This document shows, piece by piece, positions 4,169-9,419 of a stretch of DNA of 64,000 bases. Numbering within the stretch: the first letter of the stretch is position 1; each line of letters starts with the position of its first letter. This DNA is from Pseudanabaena sp. Chao 1811. GTDB lineage: Bacteria; Cyanobacteriota; Cyanobacteriia; Pseudanabaenales; Pseudanabaenaceae. The position numbers and the translations under genes are program-made. The DNA lies in NCBI RefSeq assembly GCF_027942295.1, contig NZ_CP101416.1:4016501-4080500 (forward strand), read 5' to 3'. The notes beneath the pieces were generated by a model. It was not told the DNA's origin. It saw nothing but the letters and a program-made list of their open reading frames with translations, and searched no databases.

Positions 4169-5005
4169 ATGACCCAAACCATTCTCGAACATACAAACCA
4201 AATCGCCCAAATCCCCCCTCAAGAATCTTTCCTTCGCATTGAAAATGTTTCCAAGATTTATCCTACGCCCAAGGGTGAATATGTTGTTCTTAAGGATGTC
4301 AATCTGCATATCCAAGAAGGCGAATTTATTTGTTTGATTGGTCACTCTGGCTGCGGCAAATCAACGCTCTTGAACATGGTGGGTGGCTTCTCCAAACCAT
4401 CCATTGGCGAAGTAACAGTTAATGGCAAACTAATTACCAAACCAGGTCCCGATCGCATGGTGGTGTTTCAAGGCTACGCGCTATTACCTTGGCTAACGGT
4501 TTACGAAAATGTCATGCTTGCCGTTGACTCCGTTAACCCCAATCTCTCTAAGAGCGAAAAAAATGATATCGTGCGTCATCACCTCGCTATGGTGGGCTTG
4601 AGTGAAGCTGCGGAGAAAAAGCCAACCCAAATTTCAGGGGGGATGAAGCAACGGGTATCGATCGCTAGAGCCTTGGCAATCCGTCCTGAAGTTCTCATCC
4701 TTGATGAACCCTTTGGCGCATTAGACGCAATTACCAAAGAGGAACTGCAAGAGGAACTATTACAAATTTGGACAGAGCATCGCTGCACAGTATTGATGAT
4801 TACTCACGATATTGATGAAGCGCTCTTCCTAGCCGATCGCCTAGTGATGATGACCAACGGGCCTGCGGCGAATATTGGTGAAATCATGCGGATTCCTTTC
4901 CCTCGTCCTCGCGATCGCGCCCAAATCATGGAAGATCCTTTATATTATGATCTCAGAAATACGGCTCTAGACTTTCTATACAACCGTTTTGCCCATGATG
5001 AGTAA
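4169..5005 (+). CDS. ABC ATPase subunit, CmpD/NrtD family
   Basis: This 278-residue ABC ATPase has Walker A GHSGCGKST at 58-66, signature ISGGMKQRVSIARAL, Walker B VLILDEPFGALDA and H-loop MITHDIDEA. It lacks the C-terminal binding domain of the preceding gene, as expected for the second, shorter ATPase of the heterodimeric pair in Cmp and Nrt importers. A GAGAGC stretch lies about ten bases upstream of the ATG. The 107 bp gap after the first ATPase gene holds a small GCGATCGC-centred hairpin. Its 3' end overlaps the next frame. The role as an importer motor is secure; bicarbonate versus nitrate is open. Confidence 0.93.
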   Translation: MTQTILEHTNQIAQIPPQESFLRIENVSKIYPTPKGEYVVLKDVNLHIQEGEFICLIGHSGCGKSTLLNMVGGFSKPSIGEVTVNGKLITKPGPDRMVVFQGYALLPWLTVYENVMLAVDSVNPNLSKSEKNDIVRHHLAMVGLSEAAEKKPTQISGGMKQRVSIARALAIRPEVLILDEPFGALDAITKEELQEELLQIWTEHRCTVLMITHDIDEALFLADRLVMMTNGPAANIGEIMRIPFPRPRDRAQIMEDPLYYDLRNTALDFLYNRFAHDE

Positions 5006-5900
5006 TGCTCTCACTCCTAGCCCCTCTCCGAATAAGAGAGGGGAACAAGACCATCGGATCGAGTTTGCGGATCGCCTTGCGGTAATTGCAACAATGCACC
5101 GTAAAGAATTAGCGATCGCCCCAATTCTCCAAACATCATTAGGAGTTAAAGTTACCGTACCGCAGAATTTTGACAGCGATCGCTTTGGTACATTTACCCG
5201 CGATATTGAGCGTCCTGCCAATCAAATTGAAACTGCAAAAATTAAGGCTGAGAAAGCTTTAGAGATAATTGATGCAAATATAGCGATCGCCAGTGAAGGT
5301 AGTTTCTTTCCCCATCCCATCTTAGGACTTCCCTACAATCGTGAAATAGTTTTACTACTAGATAAAAAACATGATTTCACCGTTTATGGAGAAGCAATCT
5401 CCACCGATACAAACTTTCGTTATCAAGAAATTTCTAGCTATGATCAAGCCTACGAATTTGCTCTCAAAATAGGCTTTCCCGATCATGCAGTTGTATTGAT
5501 GCCCGATGCTCAAACTTCTGCCAAGGAAACTATTTTTAAAGGCATTAATTCGGAAAATTTGTTGAGGAATACAGTTAGGGAACTGCTAAATATATCATCA
5601 ACAATTCACATTGAAACTGATATGCGAGCGCTCTATAATCCCACGCGCATGAAAAATATTGCGAAGGCAACTGAAGATCTGGTTCGGAAGCTAGGGCAAC
5701 TTTGCCCCAATTGCAATTTTGTGAATTTCGATGTAGTAGAAAAACTAAAGGGCTTACCCTGTCAGTTTTGTAATTTACCAACTCAATCTACTCGCGCTCA
5801 TTTGTATCAATGCTCTCGTTGTAAATTTCAGCGAGAGCAAATATTCCCTGAGGGAAAACAATTCGCCGATCCGATGCATTGCTCCTATTGCAATCCTTGA
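4995..5900 (+). CDS. DUF6671-like protein with C-terminal zinc-ribbon cysteines
   Basis: The conserved part begins around ADRLAVIATMHRKELAIAP and continues with GVKVTVPQNFDSDRFGTFTRDIERP and ASEGSFFPHP, a pattern I associate with the DUF6671 family of unknown function. The C-terminus carries CxxC pairs (CPNC, CQFC, CSRC, CSYC) that form two probable zinc ribbons. ATG 4995 overlaps the end of the preceding ATPase gene by about 11 bases, which suggests translational coupling. The first roughly 17 codons read through a C-rich inverted repeat (LTPSPSPNKRGEQ), so the native start may have been lost. A real link to importer function is only inferred from position. Confidence 0.7.
   Translation: MMSNALTPSPSPNKRGEQDHRIEFADRLAVIATMHRKELAIAPILQTSLGVKVTVPQNFDSDRFGTFTRDIERPANQIETAKIKAEKALEIIDANIAIASEGSFFPHPILGLPYNREIVLLLDKKHDFTVYGEAISTDTNFRYQEISSYDQAYEFALKIGFPDHAVVLMPDAQTSAKETIFKGINSENLLRNTVRELLNISSTIHIETDMRALYNPTRMKNIAKATEDLVRKLGQLCPNCNFVNFDVVEKLKGLPCQFCNLPTQSTRAHLYQCSRCKFQREQIFPEGKQFADPMHCSYCNP
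5008..5046. repeat. C-rich inverted repeat inside the start region of the DUF6671 gene
   Basis: The arms CCCCTCTC and GAGAGGGG enclose CGAATAA. Read in frame it gives TPSPSPNKRGE, a peptide typical of such repeats captured inside cyanobacterial reading frames. It resembles the C/G-rich repeats at 1946-2028 and 42727-42801 in composition but is shorter. Confidence 0.65.
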
Positions 5901-6826: not shown

Positions 6827-7891
6827 ATGACGGGTGTGATAGATTTAAAGGCAAAATCTCCTCTTTATGTCGGTTTGCTATTTGGTGGACAGTCAGGTGA
6901 ACATGATGTCTCCATCACATCGGCAAAAGCGATCGCCTCCGCCCTCAGTCAAAACTCACGTTATCAATTACAGCCATTTTATATTCAACGCGATGGCACA
7001 TGGCGCAGTCCTGATATATCCCAGCAGGTTTTAGAATCTGGCAAAGCCTTACAGGATTCAGAATTATTAACCAATGCTGCTTTTTTCTTGCCGACGGAAG
7101 TACAGCAAGTCGATCTCTGGTTTCCAGTCCTACATGGACCAAATGGCGAGGATGGTACGGTACAGGGACTATTACAATTGATGCACAAGCCCTACGTGGG
7201 TAATGGGGTGCTTGCCTCATCAGTGGGAATGGATAAGATCGCAATGAAGGCAATTTTTGCAAATGCGGGTTTACCGCAGGTCAAGTATGTAGCGCTAAAT
7301 CGTTGGCAATGGCAACAGGATGAGCTAGCTTGGAGTGAGCATATTGAAGCCACGCTCGGTTATCCCTGCTTTGTGAAGCCTTCTAATCTTGGCTCGTCGG
7401 TGGGGATTTCTAAGGTGCGCGATCGCCAACAGCTAAAAGATGCGATCGCTAGTGCCACTAGCTATGATCCACGCATCATCATTGAGCAAGGCGTAACAGC
7501 TCGTGAGATCGAATGTGCTGTCCTTGGTAATGAGCAACCCCAAGCTTCAGCGATCGGTGAGATTACTTTCACTAGCGATTTCTACGATTACGAAACTAAG
7601 TACACCGCAGGTAAGGCGGATCTAATTATCCCTAGCAAGTTGCCTGATAACGTAACTCAAGCAGTCCAGTCAATGGCAGTAAAAGCTTTTCAAACGGTAG
7701 CAGGTTCAGGTCTAGCCAGAGTTGATTTCTTCTATGTGGAAGCGACGGGAACTGTATTAATCAATGAGATTAATACTTTCCCAGGGTTTACTGCGCTGAG
7801 TATGTATCCCAAATTGTGGGAGTACTCTGGTATTCCTTTTACAGAATTATGCGATCGGCTTGTAGAGTTGGCACTAGAGAAACATGCTTAA
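6827..7891 (+). CDS. ddl: D-alanine--D-alanine ligase
   Basis: Ddl joins two D-alanines with ATP in the cytoplasm to make the dipeptide used in peptidoglycan precursors. The 354 residues match the usual family length. The N-terminal motif GGQSGEHDVSI (around 20-30) and the ATP-grasp core are visible: GYPCFVKPSNLGSSVGISKV, the grasp loop GKADLIIPSKL, and the metal-binding EINTFPGFTALSMYPKLW near the end. ATG 6827 is preceded by GAGG at 6813-6816. The last eight bases overlap the next gene, an unusual partner for a cell-wall enzyme. Confidence 0.96.
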   Translation: MTGVIDLKAKSPLYVGLLFGGQSGEHDVSITSAKAIASALSQNSRYQLQPFYIQRDGTWRSPDISQQVLESGKALQDSELLTNAAFFLPTEVQQVDLWFPVLHGPNGEDGTVQGLLQLMHKPYVGNGVLASSVGMDKIAMKAIFANAGLPQVKYVALNRWQWQQDELAWSEHIEATLGYPCFVKPSNLGSSVGISKVRDRQQLKDAIASATSYDPRIIIEQGVTAREIECAVLGNEQPQASAIGEITFTSDFYDYETKYTAGKADLIIPSKLPDNVTQAVQSMAVKAFQTVAGSGLARVDFFYVEATGTVLINEINTFPGFTALSMYPKLWEYSGIPFTELCDRLVELALEKHA

Positions 7892-8264
7892 GGAAGGATC
7901 TCTATTAGCAGACATTCAACCCATTACCATTGAAGAAGAAAATGATTGCTCTTTAAGCATAGTTGAAAGTCTGCTAGCTGAAGAGAATCTATCGCCAGAG
8001 CAAGAACAGATATTGCGACTTTTGGTGACATTGATTGAAAAATTTGAAGAAGAACATTATCAGTTAGCAGTTTCAACACCTCATTCTATCTTGTTACATC
8101 TAATGGAAGAGAGAGGATTGAGACAGGCTGATCTTGTAGGGATAATTGGCTCTCGTGGGGTAGTTTCTGAAGTTGTTAATGGCAAAAGACCTATCAGCAA
8201 AAGCCAAGCTAAGTCACTTGGAGATTTCTTCCATGTCGATCCAAGCTTGTTTATTAATTTTTAG
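7884..8264 (+). CDS. HigA-like antitoxin / XRE-type HTH protein, no toxin adjacent
   Basis: The 126-residue protein resembles HigA-family antitoxins. The N-terminal part (LADIQPITIEEENDCSLSIVESL, then LSPEQEQILRLLVTLIEKFEEEHY) is the dimerisation or toxin-binding region. The C-terminal HTH runs through LLHLMEERGLRQADLVGIIG, then GVVSEVVNGKRPISKSQAKSLGDFF. HigA usually binds its own promoter and neutralises a HigB nuclease. Here the upstream neighbour is ddl, which overlaps by eight bases, and no HigB-like frame lies on either side, so it appears to be an orphan. Downstream DNA contains repeated inverted motifs that could be its operators. Confidence 0.8.
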   Translation: MLKEGSLLADIQPITIEEENDCSLSIVESLLAEENLSPEQEQILRLLVTLIEKFEEEHYQLAVSTPHSILLHLMEERGLRQADLVGIIGSRGVVSEVVNGKRPISKSQAKSLGDFFHVDPSLFINF

Positions 8265-8273
8265 CACATTACT

Positions 8274-8411
8274 CAAAATCAAACATTTGGTTTTAAAATC
8301 AATCATTTTCCGTTAACGTTATACATTTATATTGCCAGATGTTTGATTTGCTCAAAATGTTTGATTTTGTTGTAAATATATACATTGAGGCTATTGGCTT
8401 TTGGCTACAAT
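8274..8411 (+). promoter_or_regulatory. Putative operator array and promoter before the HTH/acetate-kinase-like gene
   Basis: CAAAATCAAACATTTGG at 8274-8290 is matched by an inverted copy, CAAAATGTTTGATTTTG, at 8353-8369. Two weaker copies lie at about 8296-8310 and 8338-8350. A possible -10 box TACAAT is at 8406-8411, preceded by TTGAGG at 8385-8390 with a short 15-base spacer. The same core AATCAAACATTTTG recurs twice at 19409-19442 upstream of potA. The arrangement suggests a repressor site; which protein binds it is unknown. Confidence 0.45.
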
Positions 8412-8453
8412 TAATATGTATTACTAAAAATTAAAGAATAGGAGATTTCTACC

Positions 8454-9419
8454 ATCTCTAAGCGATCATTAAAAGCATCAGCAGCAGGTATCAAGCAAGC
8501 TAAAAAGCGGTTTGCTCAAAAAGGTTGGACTCAAGATTATCTTGCAGAGGAAGTGGGTGTCAAAACACGACAACCAATTTGGCGGTTTTTTGCAGGAAAG
8601 CCCGTTGATCGATACACATTTTTTGAAATTTGTGCAAGGCTAGACTTGAATTGGGAAGAGATTGTTGTCAAGGTGCTTTTAGAAGAAGAGGAACCTACTG
8701 ATGACAAACTTGAAATCAATTCTCATGCTACTGATCTGGCTAGCATCTCTACAGTCTCTAGTATTCCTGTAGAAGTTGATAAACGACATTATGGACTGAA
8801 TGAAAGTATCCACTATTATTGCGCTCAGCGATCTGCTGAAGTCTTAAAGAGAGATATTAAAGACTTGCGCTTGATTACTTGTAATTTAGACAGTGGGTGT
8901 TCTCTTGCTGCCATTCACAATGGTCAGATCATTGATACTGCTACTGGATTTACCCCTTTAGAAGGCTTGATGATTGACTATAGCTCTGGCTCAATTGATG
9001 CTAATGTCTTAAATGAGATGATGCGACAGGACAATGACACTAGTGAGCCATCAAAGCAAGAAGCAGACAAAGAATCAAGTTTAGTTACTACTTCTCCGAA
9101 ATCTGATCATCCAAAATCCGTGGGATCTGCGATTGATACAGATAATTCTAGAGCAAAACAAGCCTTGGATATTTACCTTCATCGCTTACGATCTTGCCTT
9201 GGTTCTATGCTTATGAGTTTAGGTGGTATGGATGCGATCGTATTTACATCGGAATTAAGTGAGAACTCAGAGATCGTTCGCGAACTTATTTGTCAATCCT
9301 TGGGATTTCTGGGGTTAAAACTTGATTTAAAACAAAATCAAAACGATCCTGTAGATTTAGACATTGCCACAACTAATTCCAAAGTGCGCGTGTTGGTGAT
9401 AAATCCCCAAGAGGTTTAA
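8454..9419 (+). CDS. Chimeric protein: N-terminal HTH-like domain fused to a degenerate acetate-kinase C-terminal domain
   Basis: The frame is open from 8442 and has no ATG upstream. AGGAG at 8440-8444 lies nine bases before ATC 8454, which would start the conserved N-terminus (M)SKRSLKASAAGIKQAKK; GTG 8553 is the first conventional start. Residues 1-72 (numbered from ATC) resemble a cyanobacterial HTH-like domain (GWTQDYLAEEVGV, then RQPIWRFFAGKPVDRYTFFE). Residues 105-320 align by eye with the second half of acetate kinase: LITCNLDSGCSLAAIHNG, GFTPLEGLM, then RLRSCLGSMLMSLGGMDAIVF. The N-terminal ATPase half is absent. FHGTSH is LNESIH, HLGNG is NLDSG and MGTRSG is IDYSSG, so key catalytic residues are gone. 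A low-complexity linker replaces part of the fold. It is probably a regulator or scaffold rather than an enzyme. Confidence 0.75.
   Translation: MSKRSLKASAAGIKQAKKRFAQKGWTQDYLAEEVGVKTRQPIWRFFAGKPVDRYTFFEICARLDLNWEEIVVKVLLEEEEPTDDKLEINSHATDLASISTVSSIPVEVDKRHYGLNESIHYYCAQRSAEVLKRDIKDLRLITCNLDSGCSLAAIHNGQIIDTATGFTPLEGLMIDYSSGSIDANVLNEMMRQDNDTSEPSKQEADKESSLVTTSPKSDHPKSVGSAIDTDNSRAKQALDIYLHRLRSCLGSMLMSLGGMDAIVFTSELSENSEIVRELICQSLGFLGLKLDLKQNQNDPVDLDIATTNSKVRVLVINPQEV

Follow-up and report, generated by a model that had tools for sequence, protein, structure and literature searches.

A half acetate kinase joined to an XRE-type helix-turn-helix in Pseudanabaena: a probable DNA-binding protein with a conserved ATH first codon

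Introduction

A gene in Pseudanabaena sp. Chao 1811 appears to join a helix-turn-helix (HTH) module to the second half of an acetate kinase (AckA), which raises the question of what role a protein of this make-up could have. The gene lies in a 64,000-nucleotide stretch of the genome, referred to below as the window. The original prediction, made from the letters of this stretch, regarded the enzyme half as catalytically dead and recruited as a sensor or scaffold. Here the domains, distribution, first codon and upstream region of the gene were analyzed; the features found are listed in Table 1.

Table 1. Features of the fusion gene and its upstream region (positions in the window)
Feature	Position	Strand	Basis or remark
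Inverted TGTTTGA copy	8279-8285		Exact match
Extra TGTTTGA copy	8340..8346	+	Exact match; in tandem with the copy inside the element, 18 bp apart
Upstream element of 31 bp AATGTTTGATTTTGTTGTAAATATATACATT, conserved; possibly regulatory	8356..8386	+	Phylogenetic footprint
Shine-Dalgarno-like AGGAG	8440..8444	+	9 nt ahead of the ATC codon
ATC, inferred near-cognate start codon	8454..8456	+	ATH at the aligned first residue in 16/16 orthologues
HTH-AckA domain II fusion gene	8454..9419	+	321 aa
XRE-type HTH, residues 2-72, common to HTH-NACHT proteins	8457..8669	+	Pooled dN/dS 0.095
Variable linker, residues 73-107	8670..8774	+	dN/dS 0.37; pLDDT <50 at residues 75-115
Catalytically dead acetate kinase domain II, residues 108-318	8775..9407	+	dN/dS 0.06 in both conserved blocks
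Variable loop, residues 192-228	9027..9137	+	Alignment; dN/dS 0.58

Domain composition and predicted structure

The acetate kinase match was upheld by profile search. PF00871 matched residues 102-320 (profile positions 160-386 of 392) with an E value of 6.6e-52 and 176.9 bits against a cut-off of 22, and TIGR00016 matched with 7.3e-53 and 179.7 bits, below its cut-off of 293.4. Solved acetate and propionate kinases were aligned by phmmer to about residues 107-320, the best four with E values of 3e-40 to 2e-34. AckA domain I was absent: profile positions 1-159 were missing, the alignment began at residue 174 of the Methanosarcina thermophila enzyme (Mt), and the PHOSPHATE1 motif of domain I was gone. 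The fusion also ended ahead of the AckA C-terminal tail, and the variable loop replaced the LNxESGLLGISG...D.R region of AckA, taking the place of Mt R285 and LOOP4.

The N-terminal part was matched by Pfam HTH_3 with an E value of 0.055, below cut-off, and at E<=1 the fusion matched PF00871, HTH_3 and HTH_31 only, with neither a NACHT nor a ROK (PF00480) match. It aligned at 54% identity over 70 aa (E 2e-26) with the HTH of XssQ, the cyanobacterial STAND transcription factor that we found described, for which DNA binding in EMSA and activation of transcription are reported (PMC8205485). PADLOC gave no match to the fusion protein, leaving a link to defence unsupported.

An AlphaFold model built from 43 sequences, a set enlarged by HTH relatives and two pieces of AckA, had a mean pLDDT of 62.5 and a pTM of 0.47; an earlier model from 12 sequences was poor (mean pLDDT 49). 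Its N-terminus had the five-helix fold of XRE/lambda-repressor-like HTHs, with helices at residues 10-23, 27-34, 40-46, 53-62 and 67-70 and pLDDT of 83-92 over residues 11-70. The AckA core blocks, residues 121-160 and 241-290, were modelled with pLDDT of 70-88, and values below 50 were found at residues 75-115, 168-229 and 297-308. Structural neighbours of the first 75 residues were EDF1 (7o81_AU; Z 9.0, rmsd 1.6, 62 aligned) and the P22 c2 repressor (2r1j; Z 8.4, rmsd 2.8, 64 aligned), and those of residues 114-320 were acetate kinases (2iir; Z 10.3, rmsd 3.9, 147 aligned). Structure prediction thus agreed with an HTH and an acetate kinase part, and the predicted joining of the two proved real, the enzyme half by its profile match and the HTH by its fold and its identity to XssQ and related HTH-NACHT proteins. 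Given its overall mean pLDDT and pTM, the model was read for its single domains only.

Distribution and selective constraint

The full fusion was found in 16 of the 58 genomes searched, including its own, with 66-96% identity to the copy in the window. These were 15 of the 26 Pseudanabaena genomes and one of nine other members of the family, against none of 23 others of the class. Ten of the 26 genus members had no copy; completeness was only 76-82% in two of the ten. When 388 genomes of the class were surveyed at E<=1e-64, with at most five candidates scored per genome, the 25 matches consisted of the same 16 fusions, one remnant and eight AckA-only proteins. The remnant, in G022 (L042:4685-5056), is C-terminal, corresponds to residues 197-320 at 93% identity and stands beside the same D27-like gene as the fusion in the window; its HTH part is missing and was apparently lost recently.

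No stop codon interrupted the frame in any of the 16 fusions. The pooled dN/dS of ten pairs was 0.147 for the whole gene and 0.062 and 0.064 for the two AckA blocks, with the values of the HTH, linker and loop given in Table 1. A gene found only here and under relaxed selection, the case that the original prediction had named against itself, was therefore not what these genomes contained; the gene is conserved in relatives under purifying selection. As judged from these comparisons, the protein is being maintained, with constraint on both of its domains. It is nevertheless dispensable, since ten of the 26 genus members lack it and one holds a remnant. Taken with its domains, it is probably a lineage-specific DNA-binding protein, and probably a regulatory one.

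Loss of the catalytic residues

Residues were numbered against 1tuu, the AckA of M. thermophila, in an alignment free of gaps (offset 64), and checked over the 16 orthologues. Mt H180, R241 and G331 corresponded to N116, S177 and E267 of the fusion, Mt G239 to D175 (A in one of the 16) and Mt N211 to residue 147, which varied among S, N, G and K. The altered motifs quoted in the original prediction were all found (YGLNESIH, NLDSG and IDYSSG), with the glutamate of SENS retained, and the changed residues proved conserved, N116, D146, S177 and E267 being identical in all 16 fusions. The glycine of the ADENOSINE loop, Mt G331, is thus a glutamate throughout. Changes at N211, G239 and G331 of the Mt enzyme lower its activity 6- to 200-fold (PMC4390882), and the Salmonella typhimurium (St) equivalents of H180 and R241 are counted among the nucleotide and acetate residues (PMC3475010).

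The fusion therefore falls outside the acetate kinases both by the catalytic and nucleotide residues H180, N211, G239, R241 and G331 and by the build of two ASKHA domains with PHOSPHATE1. The predicted loss of catalysis holds, as domain I is missing and key residues are replaced and fixed. Domain II supplies the dimer interface in S. typhimurium AckA (PMC3475010), and residues 233-258 of the fusion were nearly invariant across the 16 orthologues. Having lost domain I and changed its catalytic residues, the fusion is not an acetate kinase, though its dimerising part is kept. The suggestion that acetyl-phosphate is sensed at the old site did not stand up, as the phosphate-contacting loops carry D146, D175, S177 and E267 in place of G, G, R and G. 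Sensing of ATP or acetyl-phosphate at the former active site appears unlikely, because other residues, now fixed, occupy the catalytic positions (H180N, R241S, G331E).

Origin of the two halves

The best 80 of 137 loci contained the 69 HTH relatives used here. The HTHs of close Pseudanabaenaceae HTH-NACHT proteins were 62-74% identical to that of the fusion, and those of more distant paralogues, such as the nearest HTH-NACHT protein of its own genome, were about 43-45% identical. The NACHT profile PF05729 was found in ten of ten HTH relatives tested, XssQ included; the test covered eight of the 69, all positive, and L048 is the gene of L067. Over the first 766 residues of the HTH-NACHT protein of L048, identity was 35% with a protein of the Synechocystis plasmid pSYSM, which was taken for XssQ because a glycosyltransferase gene and two response-regulator genes adjoin it. 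In the HTH tree, which left out the more distant HTH-NACHT gene of the own genome, the fusion HTHs grouped together (support 0.71) within a clade of support 0.93 that also included two sequences from Microcoleus MAGs and the HTHs of the 15 Pseudanabaena HTH-NACHT proteins in the tree.

The AckA half had a different history. It grouped with the second AckA of G009 (UFBoot 100), both falling in a clade (99) made up mainly of AckAs of other families, and the resident Pseudanabaena AckAs were set apart (100); the root of this tree is uncertain, because it was placed on a very long branch (G009c). The stem of the fusions was long (0.486, bootstrap 73). The enzyme part is therefore an AckA domain, as predicted, but not a duplicate of the resident gene, since it belongs with a second AckA lineage. 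The AckA half probably derives from a second, acquired AckA, and a scenario of acquisition, rapid change and then constraint would fit its placement and long stem. So far as can be judged from the trees, the union of an XssQ/HTH-NACHT-type HTH with domain II took place once in Pseudanabaenaceae.

The second AckA of G009 (C22, L041:4092-5477) was the closest full-length relative found of the AckA half (58%). It has an insert in domain I, EF-hand-like by eye, and its gene lies directly 3' of a transaldolase-like gene (L041:2905-4080) whose product has a C-terminal stretch very similar to this insert. The insert looks to have been copied from the transaldolase-like neighbour.

The first codon

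The aligned first codon was ATC in ten, ATT in five and ATA in one of the 16 fusions, a conserved ATH that is new here, whereas ATG was the first codon in all 69 HTH relatives drawn from the best 80 of 137 loci. The first in-frame ATG, GTG or TTG of the window's copy was the GTG at 8553, in the middle of the HTH. From the upstream stop to the ATH codon, 13 of the 16 orthologues had no in-frame ATG, GTG, TTG or CTG, and four had no ATG, GTG or TTG across codons 2-60; a possible upstream start was seen in L010, L014 and L015, and a TTG at codon 6 in L011 and L013. The ribosome-binding site comprised at least AGGAG in 11 orthologues, matched over four bases in four others and consisted of AGG alone in L006. 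Residues 2-33 appear to be translated, since they are under constraint (dN/dS 0.197). Counted by eye on the AckA tree, there were about four switches among ATC, ATT and ATA and none to ATG, a number that is not significant alone. Because ATH stands in 16 of 16 fusions as against ATG in 69 of 69 HTH relatives, translation is probably initiated at AUH (AUC, AUU or AUA).

Starts of this kind belong to the codon class discriminated against by IF3. AUU start codons occur in infC and pcnB of Escherichia coli, where they are tied to limited or self-regulated translation (PMC9410913); they resemble the putative AUH start of the fusion, but the proteins are unrelated to it and the fusion also shows AUC and AUA. 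Autoregulation by IF3 was considered as a common theme and rejected, as infC starts with ATG in all 17 genus genomes read.

The upstream element

A position weight matrix (PWM) was made from 12 fusion sites, leaving out L012, L013 and L018, with L006 identical to L001. Scanned over the 16 fusion loci, it found the element in 14, more weakly in L018 (26.3), and recognized none upstream of the fusion in L012 and L013. In the own genome, the element was unique at up to three mismatches (reversed control, 0).

The same matrix was applied to the upstream regions of 68 of the 69 HTH relatives, that of the remaining one being too short. Three carried the element, with 24.9, 31.6 and 35.2 bits, as compared with a maximum of 14.5 in the 1024 control windows. 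These sites lie 111-150 bp ahead of three HTH-NACHT genes in the fusion-bearing genomes G011, G013 and G004, and the NACHT domain was confirmed in all three products. Over the 904,468 bases of L055-L134, matches of at least 24.9 were found only before nine fusions and these three genes; the next were 22.8 (L065, not ahead of a fusion) and 20.1 (L117). With an unrelated match at 22.8, the site scoring 24.9 is borderline, whereas those at 31.6 and 35.2 stand out clearly. A pattern search at three mismatches over the 26 genomes gave 15 matches, ten before the fusion, three before HTH-NACHT genes and two elsewhere, with none in the reversed control. This pattern was written after the HTH-NACHT sites were known, so that independent evidence comes from the matrix, built solely on fusion sites. 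The recurrence of the element before the fusion gene and three HTH-NACHT genes is new here. The element may be bound by the HTH of the fusion or may be a promoter inherited with the HTH, and both may hold; it apparently came to the fusion along with the HTH.

Other candidate operators were rejected. A palindrome drawn by eye, AATGT-N5-TTTGT-T-ACAAA-N5-ACATT, paired no better than column-shuffled controls (0.484 at the best centre against a shuffled mean of 0.518; 75.5% of the shuffles reached it). TGTTTGA-N11-TGTTTGA occurred once in the own genome (control, 0), and across the 26 genomes it had 12 matches, six of them ahead of the fusion, against eight in the control; no further targets of the tandem are therefore claimed, and it was dropped as a genome-wide operator. 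The XssQ consensus AAGTTnnAC had no consistent place in the fusion upstream regions, being exact in L014 and L016 with one-mismatch matches scattered.

Comparison with known systems

No described system of this make-up was found in searches of open-access literature, in line with the original prediction; ROK repressors offer a parallel, though the profile matches place the fusion outside the ROK family. ROK proteins retain both kinase lobes, whereas the fusion has only one, and its kinase family and HTH differ from theirs, with a separate origin. In Mlc and NagC, an HTH is joined to an ASKHA kinase-fold domain (PMC4856308), a make-up paralleled by the fusion, which may work in a like manner.

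The XssQ/HTH-NACHT (STAND) regulators share the N-terminal HTH type of the fusion, and three of them share its upstream element. In contrast, the fusion lacks the NACHT and C-terminal helical domains and has half an acetate kinase instead, and its first codon is ATH where theirs is ATG. To AckA (PF00871) it is similar in domain II sequence, predicted fold and dimer helix, but it lacks domain I, PHOSPHATE1, the catalytic His and Arg, the ADENOSINE glycine (replaced by Glu) and the tail, and an HTH is added.

Proposed mechanism and alternatives

The reading that we favour, and to which we give an even chance on the sequence comparisons, is that of a permanently dimeric, autoregulating DNA-binding protein, limited in dose by its AUH start and possibly competing with HTH-NACHT regulators. 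The sequences show that an XssQ/HTH-NACHT-type HTH, apparently bringing its upstream element, was fused to domain II taken from a second acetate kinase, that domain I, the AckA tail and the catalytic residues were lost, and that strong purifying selection has since acted on the product. Domain II would act as a permanent dimerisation module pairing two HTHs without the ATP-gated NACHT switch, and the dimer would bind the element ahead of its own gene, giving autoregulation. In some genomes, the fusion might also bind the element ahead of HTH-NACHT genes, as a switchless repressor or competitor; such competition is excluded in its own genome, because no close HTH-NACHT gene is present there. 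Initiation at AUC, AUU or AUA would keep the dose low, with good Shine-Dalgarno sequences as an offset in most orthologues. The wider proposal of a new transcription-factor family, in which the NACHT switch of an XssQ-type activator was swapped for the dimer half of an enzyme, so that a permanent dimer would occupy the same sites and an obligatory, genus-conserved AUH start would set its dose, is offered more tentatively.

The enzyme half might instead bind a small molecule, in a remodelled cleft or in a pocket at the dimer interface, and so control DNA binding in the manner of a ROK-like metabolite-sensing regulator. In its favour, the residues that took over the pocket (N116, D146, S177 and E267) do not vary among the 16 fusions, as if the site were still selected. 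The dimer-interface pocket of S. typhimurium AckA binds citrate (PMC3475010), D161/T162 of the fusion are invariant and correspond to D227/T228 of that enzyme by motif, not by alignment to that chain, and Mlc, a repressor with an HTH and a kinase fold, was among the weak structural matches (Foldseek E 0.014). With domain I, half of the cleft, missing, LOOP4 swapped for a variable loop, and G331E and R241S placing changed side chains at the phosphate and acetate sites, we nevertheless regard such a sensor as rather unlikely. Mixed dimers with the resident AckA, another suggestion of the original prediction, would couple transcription to acetate metabolism or titrate the enzyme. The dimer-forming domain is retained, and all 16 genomes with the fusion also have another AckA match, read as 402-406 aa; however, the AckA half is of the other lineage and 47% identical to the resident enzyme, the element was seen in just one of 36 AckA loci as a weak match (L033, 12.1), and ackA lies near the fusion only in G017 among the loci read, which makes such pairing decidedly improbable.

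It is likewise improbable, if a shade less so, that the HTH serves for interaction and not for DNA binding, the fusion contacting NACHT proteins directly as a dominant-negative partner. The two share the HTH, and 14 of the 16 fusion-bearing genomes have another gene with a 56-73% identical HTH, but XssQ, whose HTH is of this type, has been proven to bind DNA (PMC8205485), and the own genome and G014 have no such partner. Decay into a functionless remnant could be suspected from G022, the only remnant, and from the genus members without a copy, of which two genomes are incomplete as noted above; it is hardly credible in the face of dN/dS values of 0.06-0.10 in the domains, frames free of stops in 16 of 16, and the conserved element and ribosome-binding site.

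On the favoured reading of a permanently dimeric DNA-binding protein, the locus would offer a traceable case of half a metabolic enzyme turned into the dimerisation module of a regulator, and its evolutionary steps are testable because relatives of both parent lineages persist in the genus. In addition, many genomes would share natural, conserved AUC/AUU/AUA initiation in this one gene, which would help in asking why a poor start codon is kept. In case of competition with HTH-NACHT regulators, the fusion would represent a natural counterpart of STAND transcription factors that lacks the switch.

Neighbouring genes and minor observations

Shared gene order was dropped as a theme: the D27-like neighbour is kept only in the close relatives G021, G004, G011 and G014 and beside the G022 remnant, ddl lies upstream of the fusion in G021, G013 and G011, and the other loci have different gene orders. 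In the window, the beta-carotene isomerase D27-like gene (PF13225; 9493-10158) lies on the same strand, 73 bp 3' of the fusion. No viral copy was found in IMG/VR in scans with an AckA and with the fusion alignment. One IMG/VR contig has an ORF (L204:3826-5571) that combines an AckA N-terminal half with a phage terminase-like stretch (by eye) and is perhaps an assembly chimera.

Upstream in the window, a 126-aa HTH protein (7884-8264) overlaps the end of ddl and matched PADLOC PD-Lambda-2_B (E 2e-20). It looks like an orphan antitoxin, because here it and ddl leave no room for an ORF between them, whereas G013 has a 100-aa ORF at that place, HigB-like by eye. Farther upstream, a DUF6671 protein (PF20376, E 2.3e-69) is encoded at 4989-5900, after a gene that by eye is for an ABC transporter ATPase.
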